From positions 1 through 35,039 of the forward strand of contig DRQG01000044.1 in NCBI GenBank assembly GCA_011369465.1: a DNA stretch of 35,039 nucleotides, given 5' to 3'. Source of the DNA: Caldithrix abyssi (GTDB taxonomy: Bacteria; Calditrichota; Calditrichia; Calditrichales; Calditrichaceae). Positions 6,854 to 10,405 of this stretch are shown here, one piece after another; position 1 is the stretch's first letter; each line of letters starts with the position of its first letter. The notes under the pieces are model-generated. The model worked only from the letters and a program-made list of their open reading frames with translations. It was not told the origin of the DNA and searched no databases. The translations under genes were made by a program, and so were the position numbers.

Positions 6854-7885
6854 ATGAAACTATCAGATTTTTATTTCGAGGTACCCGAAGAGCTGATCGC
6901 CCAATACCCGGTCGAAAAACGTGATGAATCGCGCTTACTGGTACTCGACCGCAAAAATAAGACACGTCATCATCATATTTTTAAAGAAATTACGCAATAT
7001 TTAAACGATGGCGATGTTTTGGTTGTGAATGAGACAAAAGTATTCCCTGCCCGTCTGTTTGGTGTAAAAGAAAAAACCGATGCGCAGGTGGAACTGCTTC
7101 TGCTCCGCCAGTTGGAACAAACCATGTGGGAAGTTTTGGTGAAGCCGGCCCGCAAGGTACGCGTTGGCAACCGTATTCAGATTACGGATGATTTCGGTTG
7201 TGATGTCATCGACAATACGACCTCCGGCGGCCGTGTGGTTCGTTTTGATTATAACGGACAGGATTTTTTCGATCTGATTGAAAATGTCGGTCAATCCCCT
7301 CTTCCACCCTATATTAAACGGGAAGCAGAGGAAATTGACCGTGAAAAATATCAGACCGTTTATGCCAATAAGATCGGCGCCGTAGCCGCACCGACTGCCG
7401 GTTTACATTTTACCAACGAATTGTTGGATGAAATCCGAGGCAACGGCGTGAATATCGCTCCGGTAGTATTACATGTAGGTTTGGGAACCTTCCGCCCCAT
7501 CAAAGTGGAAGACCTTTCCCGTCATCAAATGGATTCCGAATACTTCGAGATCAGCGAAGAGTCTGCTCAGGTTATAAATCAGGCTAAAATGGACGGGAAA
7601 CGGGTTGTTGCCGTGGGCACCACCACCGTGCGCGTACTGGAATCTGCCGCCAATGCCGATAACCTGGTAAAACCGGCCAGCGGCTGGACGGATAAATTTA
7701 TCTATCCACCCTATAATTTTAAGATTATCGATTCGCTGATTACCAATTTTCATTTACCCGCATCCACATTATTTTTGTTAACCTGTGCGCTTGCCGGTAA
7801 AGACGAGGTAATGGAAGCCTATCAGGAAGCGATCGATAAAAAATATCGCTTTTACAGCTATGGCGACGCTATGCTGATTTTGTAG
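6854..7885 (+). CDS. queA: S-adenosylmethionine:tRNA ribosyltransferase-isomerase QueA
   Basis: QueA transfers the ribosyl part of S-adenosylmethionine to preQ1-modified tRNA, forming epoxyqueuosine at wobble position 34. The 343-residue product shows the family start (FYFEVPEELIAQYP), the block PTAGLHFTNELL, HVGLGTFRPIK, and the C-terminal TNFHLPASTLFLLTCALAG and YRFYSYGDAMLI. Length is normal. The ATG follows GTGAGGAGT. It lies 25 bases after ruvB, a common ruvB-queA pairing, and 7 bases before the IspF-like gene. Confidence 0.97.
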   Translation: MKLSDFYFEVPEELIAQYPVEKRDESRLLVLDRKNKTRHHHIFKEITQYLNDGDVLVVNETKVFPARLFGVKEKTDAQVELLLLRQLEQTMWEVLVKPARKVRVGNRIQITDDFGCDVIDNTTSGGRVVRFDYNGQDFFDLIENVGQSPLPPYIKREAEEIDREKYQTVYANKIGAVAAPTAGLHFTNELLDEIRGNGVNIAPVVLHVGLGTFRPIKVEDLSRHQMDSEYFEISEESAQVINQAKMDGKRVVAVGTTTVRVLESAANADNLVKPASGWTDKFIYPPYNFKIIDSLITNFHLPASTLFLLTCALAGKDEVMEAYQEAIDKKYRFYSYGDAMLIL

Positions 7886-7892
7886 GGGGTGT

Positions 7893-8336
7893 ATGCGCGA
7901 AAGCAGCCGAATCGGTATCGGATACAGGCGCTTCCGGTTTGAACCGGCAGATATGCGCTCTGCACAGGCCCAAAATGAGAGGAGCGAGGTAAAAACCGGT
8001 GAGCAGTGTATCGCTTTAACCATTGCCGACGCCCTTCTGGGAGCCGCCGCTTTAGGCGGAGTGGATGCACATTTCAGCAGCGATGAAGATCCGTTGACCA
8101 TCCTGCGCCAAAGCGAAAAAAAAGTCTATTTTTCAGGGTACGAAATCGTCAATATAGATATCAGTTTTGGTCCGCATTCTGCGCTTGATAAACCCGCACA
8201 GGAAGTCCTGTCTGACTTTCGCCGCTTACTCTTTATAAAATCGGAACAAATTAATATTAAATTTTTGCCGGTATTCGATCAGGGTTCTTCCCTTTTGGAA
8301 TGCCAGGCAGTGTGTTTGCTGGGCGGTAAAAAATAA
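7893..8336 (+). CDS. IspF-like protein lacking the active-site residues
   Basis: The 147 residues align by eye along the whole of 2-C-methyl-D-erythritol 2,4-cyclodiphosphate synthase (IspF). Shared features are RIGIGY at the start, DALLGAAALGG (46-56), the GYEIVNIDI strand, and the INIK and LECQAVCLL ends. The catalytic parts are gone. The DxH metal ligands after RIGHGF are Arg12 and Phe14. The third ligand, the His of the HSDGD loop, falls at Lys34 (VKTGEQ). The TTTE and GFTGRGEG nucleotide-binding stretch is FLPVFDQGSS, and the SRELL segment is shortened. The fold and trimer may persist, but synthase activity is very unlikely. The ATG has a strong AGGGGGTG site, and the reading frame is intact, so it does not look like a decaying gene. 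ispF often adjoins gltX and cysS, matching this position. Function unknown. Confidence 0.75.
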   Translation: MRESSRIGIGYRRFRFEPADMRSAQAQNERSEVKTGEQCIALTIADALLGAAALGGVDAHFSSDEDPLTILRQSEKKVYFSGYEIVNIDISFGPHSALDKPAQEVLSDFRRLLFIKSEQINIKFLPVFDQGSSLLECQAVCLLGGKK

Positions 8337-8337
8337 T

Positions 8338-8958
8338 ATGCTGGAGTTTATCAATTCGCTTTTTAATCAGGTTGATCCGTTGTCCGCTTATCTGGTGCTG
8401 GGCCTGAGCGCTTTTGTGGAAAATACCGTGCCGCCCATCCCCGGAGATACGGTTACGGTTTTAGGAGCTTACCTGGTTTCCATCGGAAAACTGAATTTTT
8501 GGGGCGTGTATATTTCCACAACGATCGGCAGTGTGTTGGGTTTCTTTTTTATGTATGTACTGGGCCTGCGATTCGGCCGTTCCATATTGAAATCCCGCTT
8601 AAGCCAAAAAATTTTTAGTGAGACCCAGCTAAAAAAAACGGAACTATGGTTTGGCCGATACGGATACTGGATGATCGCGGCTAATCGATTTTTAAGCGGA
8701 ACGCGCAGTGTGATTTCGCTGTTTACCGGTTTTTTTCATCTCAAATGGTATCTGGTTTTGGGATTGGCGTTCCTGAGCGCGGCTGTGTGGAACGCTTTGT
8801 TGATTTCCGCCGGTTACCTGTTGGGCGAAAACTGGGAATTGGTTACCGGCATTATCGCCCAGTATAATAAAATTGTCATTGTTGTAACGATCGGCCTTAT
8901 TATCTATTTTATCATACGGCGCAAACGTGCCGCTTCATTGCCAAAGGAAACGGAATAA
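8338..8958 (+). CDS. DedA family inner-membrane protein
   Basis: This 206-residue integral membrane protein belongs to the DedA/SNARE-associated (VTT) family, members of which include undecaprenyl-phosphate or other lipid flippases. Visible family marks are VENTVPPIPGD near the N-terminus, the GSVLGFFFMYVLG helix, and ANRFLSGTRSVISLFTG, corresponding to the conserved FxRFxPGxR block with a Ser in place of Pro. Several hydrophobic segments and a basic C-terminal tail (RRKRA) follow. It starts two bases after the IspF-like stop and ends four bases before gltX. The lipid handled is unknown; placement beside cell-wall genes fits a lipid-carrier role but does not prove it. Confidence 0.88.
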   Translation: MLEFINSLFNQVDPLSAYLVLGLSAFVENTVPPIPGDTVTVLGAYLVSIGKLNFWGVYISTTIGSVLGFFFMYVLGLRFGRSILKSRLSQKIFSETQLKKTELWFGRYGYWMIAANRFLSGTRSVISLFTGFFHLKWYLVLGLAFLSAAVWNALLISAGYLLGENWELVTGIIAQYNKIVIVVTIGLIIYFIIRRKRAASLPKETE

Positions 8959-8962
8959 AAAG

Positions 8963-10405
8963 ATGAACAAAGAGCAAGTTCGGGTGCGTTTTGCTCCCAG
9001 CCCTACCGGGTTTCTGCACGTGGGCAGTTTACGTACGGCATTGTATAACTATCTGTTTGCGCGCCAACACAACGGCGTTTTTGTGCTGCGCATTGAAGAT
9101 ACGGATCAGAAACGCTATGTGGAAGGCGCGGTGGAAAACTTGCTGGAAACCCTGCGCTGGTCCGGGCTCGAATACGATGAGGGACCGGAAAAGGAGGGCC
9201 CATACGGCCCCTACTTCCAATCGCAGCGTCTTGATCTGTACAAAAAATACGTGAATCAGCTCATCGAACACGACCATGCTTACCCCTGCTTTTGTTCGGA
9301 AGATCGCCTGAATGCCATGCGCGAAGAGCAGGCGGCAAAAGGACAGGCGGTAATGTACGACGGCCTATGCCGTTCTATTCCCCGAAAAGAAGCGCAGGAA
9401 CGTATGGGCCGGGAAGACCATGTAATCCGCTTAAAGGTTCCGGATAGCGGCTTTAGCGAGGTGGACGATATCATTCGCGGTAAAGTGCGTTTTGAAAACG
9501 CTTTGCTGGATGATCAGGTTTTGCTGAAAAGCGACGGTTTTCCCACCTATCATCTGGCCAATGTCGTGGACGATCATTTGATGAAGATCAGTCATGTTAT
9601 CCGGGGTGAGGAATGGCTGCCCAGTACGCCGAAACACATTTTGCTCTATCAGGCCTTTGGCTGGGAACCGCCCCACTTTGCCCATCTTCCGCTGCTGTTA
9701 AACGAAGACCGCAGCAAACTGAGCAAACGACAGGGCGATGTGGCCGTGGAAGATTACCGCGCCAAGGGCATCCTGCCCGAAGCTCTGCTCAATTTTGTGG
9801 CTCTGTTGGGCTGGAACCGCGGCGACGATCAGGAAATTTTTACCCTGGACGAGCTGGTAAACGATTTCTCGCTGGAGCGGGTAAACAAGGCCGGGGCGGT
9901 TTTCAATCTGGAAAAGCTGGATTGGCTAAACGGATATTACATCCGTCATTTGGATGAATCCGATTATTTGCGCATAGGCAAAGAATGGCTGGATAAGCTG
10001 GAATTAACAACGGGAAATGATGAAAACGACAAAACCATCCTTCTGGCCGTGCGCAACCATCTGAACCGTTTTGATCAGCTTAAAGAGGAAAGCCGTATTT
10101 TTTTTACGGATGATTTTGAATACACGGACGAAGCGCGGCAGTGGATCGACAAAAAGGAAAGCCAAATGCTTCTTACGCTAATGCTCGAAAAAGTCGGGCA
10201 ATACGATCCGTTGAATCTGGATACCTTTCGTTCGCTGATGAAAGAAGTGCAGAAAGAAAGCGGTTTAAAGGGCAAAGATTTGTGGATGCCGGTACGCGCC
10301 GCTTTAACCGGTACGGTGGCCGGGCCCGAACTGCCTGCGGTTATTCAGGTGTTCGGTAAAGAAAAAGTGCAGCGTCTGCTAAAAAATATTTTAAGGGAAA
10401 GTTAG
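8963..10405 (+). CDS. gltX: Glutamyl-tRNA synthetase
   Basis: This class I aminoacyl-tRNA synthetase charges tRNA with glutamate. The 480-residue protein starts MNKEQVRVRFAPSPTGFLHVGS, whose HVGS (19-22) is the HIGH motif; KLSKR (252-256) is the KMSKS motif. A cysteine-containing insert (YPCFCSED then YDGLCR) resembles the zinc site of many bacterial GluRS. An in-frame ATG at 8927 lies inside the DedA gene and would add 12 foreign residues, so ATG 8963 is used. Whether it is discriminating (Glu only) or also charges tRNA-Gln cannot be told here. Confidence 0.96.
   Translation: MNKEQVRVRFAPSPTGFLHVGSLRTALYNYLFARQHNGVFVLRIEDTDQKRYVEGAVENLLETLRWSGLEYDEGPEKEGPYGPYFQSQRLDLYKKYVNQLIEHDHAYPCFCSEDRLNAMREEQAAKGQAVMYDGLCRSIPRKEAQERMGREDHVIRLKVPDSGFSEVDDIIRGKVRFENALLDDQVLLKSDGFPTYHLANVVDDHLMKISHVIRGEEWLPSTPKHILLYQAFGWEPPHFAHLPLLLNEDRSKLSKRQGDVAVEDYRAKGILPEALLNFVALLGWNRGDDQEIFTLDELVNDFSLERVNKAGAVFNLEKLDWLNGYYIRHLDESDYLRIGKEWLDKLELTTGNDENDKTILLAVRNHLNRFDQLKEESRIFFTDDFEYTDEARQWIDKKESQMLLTLMLEKVGQYDPLNLDTFRSLMKEVQKESGLKGKDLWMPVRAALTGTVAGPELPAVIQVFGKEKVQRLLKNILRES

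Follow-up and report, generated by a model that had tools for sequence, protein, structure and literature searches.

Pseudoenzymes in general are inactive members of enzyme families, paralogous or orthologous, that have been retained for scaffolding or regulation, and no case known to us has been reported of an IspF persisting, under selection but without catalysis, once its pathway had been lost; a literature search for IspF together with pseudoenzyme found no paper. In Listeria species with the mevalonate pathway, an active partial MEP pathway is retained for MEcDP (PMC13001223). The gene considered here lies in a window of 35,039 nucleotides, the whole stretch of DNA analysed, from a Caldithrix abyssi assembly (genome G000; phylum Calditrichota, family f1). 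It resembles the Listeria case in that an ispF-derived gene is kept in a mevalonate-dependent organism, and differs from it in that the Listeria enzymes are active and make MEcDP, whereas in the window genome the upstream enzymes have disappeared and the protein itself appears to be dead. Like pseudoenzymes generally, it lacks catalytic residues in a fold that purifying selection probably preserves; unlike them, it belongs to a genome that holds no active IspF to be regulated. We propose that it is a conserved pseudoenzyme remaining after pathway replacement, probably with a new, non-catalytic job. The features of the locus are collected in Table 1.

Table 1. Features of the pseudoenzyme locus (positions within the window)
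Feature	Position	Strand	Basis
IspF-like pseudoenzyme gene (147 aa), the genome's only YgbB-family gene	7893..8336	+	alignment, profile, AlphaFold2 model
Shine-Dalgarno-like GGGGGTGT region, queA stop to ATG	7885..7892	+	sequence
Strand beta-1 (RIGIGYRRFR); R12 and F14 replace Zn ligands D8/H10	7908..7937	+	alignment; strand 6-15 in model
Helix 1 (EQCIALTIADALLGAA), core conserved, Zn ligand H42 replaced by Leu	7998..8045	+	alignment, model
Strand with conserved N-x-D (YEIVNIDISFG)	8139..8171	+	alignment
FLPVFDQGSSL, shortened; stands for the canonical TTTEKLGFTGRGEG stretch (nucleotide/Mg site, cavity aperture)	8262..8294	+	alignment
queA, conserved upstream neighbour	6854..7885	+	window sequence and relatives' loci
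DedA-family membrane protein gene, starting 1 nt after the pseudoenzyme stop	8338..8958	+	profile matches
gltX, conserved next gene; start set at internal ATG MNKEQVRVRFAPSPTG	8963..10405	+	window sequence and relatives' loci

A first-pass annotation of this DNA had described the frame as intact, with a ribosome binding site and tight spacing, and the description holds: the 147-codon ORF has a GGGGG Shine-Dalgarno-like run immediately 5' of its ATG, this ATG is 7 nt past the queA stop, and the dedA ATG comes 1 nt past the ORF's own stop. A scan for consensus promoters and terminators around the gene gave nothing convincing. The protein matches the Pfam YgbB (IspF) profile with 31.7 bits (cut-off 26.7, E 2e-7) and the NCBIfam ispF equivalog TIGR00151 with 21.7 bits, far under the cut-off of 116.45. 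Its AlphaFold2 model (pLDDT 82, pTM 0.80) was compared with the PDB by Foldseek, and all the listed top matches are IspF (E 5e-11), one of them, 5esv, being an IspF-scaffolded immunogen. A Caldithrix homologue, modelled with a pLDDT of 87, still matched IspF structures. Judged by profile and predicted fold, the ORF encodes a true IspF-fold protein of the YgbB/IspF superfamily. It is like the MEcDP synthase IspF (PF02542, TIGR00151) in fold, in the order of secondary structures, in its DALLGAA and N-x-D motifs and in its locus, adjoining dedA downstream of queA/ispD; it differs from IspF in scoring under the TIGR00151 cut-off and in having no Zn ligands, nucleotide/Mg motif, cavity arginine or substrate loops. 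The kept core comprises strand beta-1, the N-x-D strand, the K-bearing strand, the C-terminal strand and helices 1 and 2, while the active-site loops have gone, as has the opening of the trimer cavity. The core strands are retained in the monomer models of both the window protein and the Caldithrix homologue, and the alignment shows the N-x-D strand in seven of seven clear ORF-bearing relatives as well as in canonical IspFs.

Every class of catalytic residue is lost. Residues are numbered here as in E. coli IspF and the register is that of a MAFFT alignment; its E. coli row is what we take to be the E. coli sequence, and the Zn ligands, H34 and D38 in it are backed by three canonical Calditrichota IspFs. 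All three Zn ligands of the window protein are replaced (D8>R, H10>F, H42>L). The Arg and Phe at the DxH ligands had already been read from the sequence, and the loss of H42 is an addition to that list. As for the HSDGD loop (H34/D38), the loop is indeed lost, as had been said, but the Lys assigned to its ligand depends on gap placement: the counterpart of the His is Val by MAFFT and Lys by an ungapped count back from Asp46. Other substitutions are D38>Q, D56>G, G58>D and D63>S. The TTTE/GFTGRG stretch had likewise been called lost, and we agree: T132-E135 (TTTE) has become LPVF within a shortened segment, and R142/E144, the clamp of the trimer cavity, are deleted. No other register restores the ligands, a possibility raised in the first-pass annotation as contrary evidence, because the protein's sole D-x-H (D58-H60) lies in the wrong place, past helix 1, and is unconserved in homologues. 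The ligand losses are far beyond chance; other genera show them too, in homologues at this very locus. On these alignments, and with a sub-threshold equivalog score and none of the remaining MEP pathway, the protein lacks what a functional IspF would have, and as far as sequence goes catalysis is excluded: the window protein should be unable to make MEcDP.

The genome around it points the same way. It holds no second or canonical IspF, the window protein being its sole YgbB match, and profile searches found neither IspG nor IspH in any genome of the window's family or of family f2. Its best IspD match is under the cut-off, and its one DXR match is partial (36 positions). Throughout the family, DXR and IspD matches were rejected as pathway genes, being mostly partial and low-scoring. 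The exception is an IspD match of 156 bits (G010:C378:6758-7393) in a Calditrichaceae genome without IspF, IspG or IspH, which is possibly a TarI-like cytidylyltransferase. The mevalonate pathway, on the other hand, is full: there is an HMG-CoA synthase matching the archaeal-type model (531 bits), and a mevalonate operon encodes MvaD (diphosphomevalonate decarboxylase), a PMK-like GHMP kinase, a fusion of HMG-CoA reductase (HMGR) and mevalonate kinase, and IDI-1 (type I IPP isomerase). Since the mevalonate gene set is complete, IspG and IspH are absent and the IspD and DXR matches are not real, we infer from gene content that the isoprenoids of this organism come from mevalonate. The first-pass annotation had suggested that isoprenoid synthesis may have moved elsewhere and had advised searching the genome for a canonical ispF and for MEP against mevalonate genes; the search bears out its suggestion. 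Isoprenoid synthesis is not mentioned in the C. abyssi genome paper.

Some details of these pathways deserve mention in their own right. The window genome has two archaeal-type HMG-CoA synthases (G000:C79:4605-5639 and G000:C108:11923-12951; 531 and 492 bits) and zero matches to the Pfam C-terminal model of the bacterial/eukaryotic type. The reductase-kinase fusion is one protein of 751 aa (L032:7811-10066, contig G000:C109), with TIGR00532 matched by residues 1-388 and TIGR00549 by residues 451-726, and an open frame of about 750 aa for the HMGR match is found in most of the class. Mevalonate genes and MEP genes (DXR, IspD, IspF, IspG, IspH) coexist in three Calditrichia genomes of families f4 and f6 (G022, G031, G034), so the two pathways have occurred side by side within this class.

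The history of the gene can be read from the same interval in relatives. In family f4 the order is queA-ispD-ispF(canonical)-dedA, and in the window's family it is queA-ligand-depleted ORF-dedA in seven genomes (G000, G001, G002, G005, G012, G013 and G014). The first-pass annotation had proposed to collect homologues sharing the altered residues; besides the window's own, at least six genomes in the family carry them between queA and dedA. Since a canonical ispD-ispF stands at this very spot in f4, the window gene is the original ispF altered in place, that is, ispF itself, decommissioned where it stood and lost several times in relatives. The loss of ligands, as aligned, is graded among the copies, because G001 and G002 retain D38 and H42 while D8, H10 and H34 are gone. 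A stop in the G013 copy was considered as a disruption and set aside, being the terminal stop. The contig of locus L065 (JAGHBR010000383.1) is titled Caldisericaceae; it belongs to G012, of the same genus as G005, and is probably mislabelled.

Two readings would take the apparent loss of the enzyme away. The first is that the protein still makes MEcDP, in full or in part, by means of other metal ligands and is kept for signalling by this compound, as has been proposed for Listeria; in its favour are the Listeria precedent itself (PMC13001223) and the D38 and H42 still present in G001 and G002. However, neither the nucleotide/Mg motif nor any Zn ligand survives in the window and Caldithrix proteins, and the window genome, having neither IspD nor IspG and a partial DXR, offers neither a supply of substrate nor a use for the product; we regard such activity as extremely improbable. 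It is just as hard to credit an artefact, either a contaminating contig or a canonical copy missing from an incomplete assembly. The assembly is in 161 contigs with an estimated contamination of 3.7%, but its completeness is 98.5%, IspG and IspH are absent family-wide, and the same arrangement recurs in the closed, single-contig 4.98 Mb genome G005 (Caldithrix) and in six independent genomes.

The decommissioned gene has not been kept everywhere. In G009 a 119-aa ORF directly after queA (L053) is extremely divergent and Pfam-negative and is recognized by a pseudo-IspF profile with E 1.7e-7; to judge from its sequence, it is an almost unrecognisable IspF descendant that looks close to decay. 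The queA-dedA gap is 5-6 nt, without an ORF, in G003 and G006, and gaps that are merely short, from which the absence of the ORF was judged, occur in G007, G008, G010 and all f2 genomes examined. Over evolutionary time the protein can be done without, as the deletion of the ORF from several related genera shows. A species tree from QueA and DedA, tried for counting the losses, was dropped for its weak support.

Is the surviving protein then maintained? Two Caldithrix species, G005 and G012, form the sole pair close enough for dN/dS, with dS (1.3-1.5) near saturation; codon-ML estimates for other pairs were unused, their dS being saturated. Over 133 codons the pair shows 73% identity and zero indels, and the dN/dS of the pseudoenzyme is 0.11-0.12 (bootstrap upper bound 0.20), equal to that of dedA in this pair (0.07-0.11). 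Substitutions at codon positions 1/2/3 number 26/15/63. Neutral simulation gave a mean amino-acid identity of 0.13 (maximum 0.22) against the observed 0.73, and left the frame open in at most 0.5% of trials. In the Caldithrix pair, a protein without catalytic residues is under purifying selection. The window's own gene has no close relative, the others standing at 22-30% identity, and selection on it may be supposed from its membership of this group. The first-pass annotation had called the gene a maintained pseudoenzyme rather than debris and had named a dN/dS near one as the mark of decay; with a low dN/dS, zero indels at a dS of about 1.3 and the IspF fold retained, plain debris is not what the data describe. 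Together with the register and the homologues above, this means that none of the three refutations which that annotation had named came true.

A subtler form of decay would be a slowly dying relic, functionless, its frame kept open because, in a tight co-translated operon, a stop or frameshift would impair the expression of dedA and gltX by polarity. Divergence is indeed fast (the between-genus identity above compares with 75-78% for queA), the ORF was cleanly and repeatedly deleted in sister genera, and the G009 copy is nearly beyond recognition. Polarity would preserve a frame but not amino acids, and it is the amino acids that are conserved between G005 and G012; the IspF fold, moreover, is predicted with good confidence even in the most shortened copies. 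We consider a relic rather unlikely. A new enzyme or ligand-binding protein, with a new site at the old active-site position of the IspF scaffold, is a still more doubtful outcome. Among the four copies from the genus Caldithrix, invariant columns cluster in the old active-site loop and helix 1 (STTFAAL..AVVDALL; 1/20000 shuffles), the HSDGD loop having turned into an invariant STTFAAL motif amid diverged sequence. This motif, however, is absent from the window protein, G001 and G002, and the polar residues invariant in seven of seven pseudoenzymes (D46, E75, N87, D89 and K123, window numbering) all occur in the canonical IspFs of f4 as well, leaving no newly acquired set of polar residues that the pseudoenzymes have in common.

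We therefore return to a decommissioned ispF and consider it probable that the original gene, in its ancestral place, lost catalysis after mevalonate took over and that its product lives on as an oligomeric module without catalysis. The ancestral order would be queA-[ispD]-ispF-dedA-gltX, in which ispF stayed in place, and catalysis would have been dropped once the mevalonate pathway alone supplied isoprenoids. Because the IspF core retains its strands and helices but has lost its active-site loops, the trimer core may survive and work by protein-protein contact, which is the simplest reading. The first-pass idea of a repurposed trimeric binding protein is plausible, though weakened for isoprenoid binding by the loss of the cavity arginine that grips the diphosphate. 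The cavity of the canonical IspF trimer grips isoprenoid diphosphates (PMC2151065); sensing of these compounds through the cavity is disfavoured here, since the R142/E144 clamp is lost.

The leading candidate for a partner of such a module would be the translationally coupled DedA, an UptA-like polyprenyl-phosphate flippase, with the pseudoenzyme perhaps being a subunit that helps to assemble or regulate it; we put this forward tentatively. In profile searches the window DedA is nearest to the models of UptA undecaprenyl-phosphate transporters, under their cut-offs, and DedA proteins of the UptA-like kind were reported as UndP flippases (PMC10127716). The coupling itself is weak evidence for the partnership because it was inherited from active ispF: canonical ispF lies directly before dedA, with a median gap of 1 nt, in 23 Ignavibacteria/Bacteroidota-type loci, which were picked by similarity to the window DedA, and the two genes were already coupled when activity was lost. 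In most of these loci (L103-L142; Ignavibacteria, Melioribacteraceae and Bacteroidota) the gap is -8 to +3 nt, and the arrangement ties a membrane protein of the DedA family to MEP synthesis. That the dead trimer has become a subunit devoted to regulating or assembling a DedA-type polyprenyl-phosphate flippase is speculative, and we would think it unlikely; if true, IspF would have an unnoticed non-catalytic function, perhaps already in bacteria whose active ispF is coupled to dedA.

The practical consequence is one of annotation: pipelines that accept the Pfam YgbB match would wrongly assign a MEP enzyme to these organisms. For the phylum, one locus offers a graded series running from canonical ispD-ispF through partial and complete loss of the ligands to deletion, and in this way the Calditrichota locus is a natural experiment in the conversion of an essential enzyme into a pseudoenzyme once its pathway has been replaced. 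It also prompts one to ask whether IspF has a non-catalytic role, possibly in concert with the DedA flippase translated alongside it, among bacteria where the enzyme is still in use.
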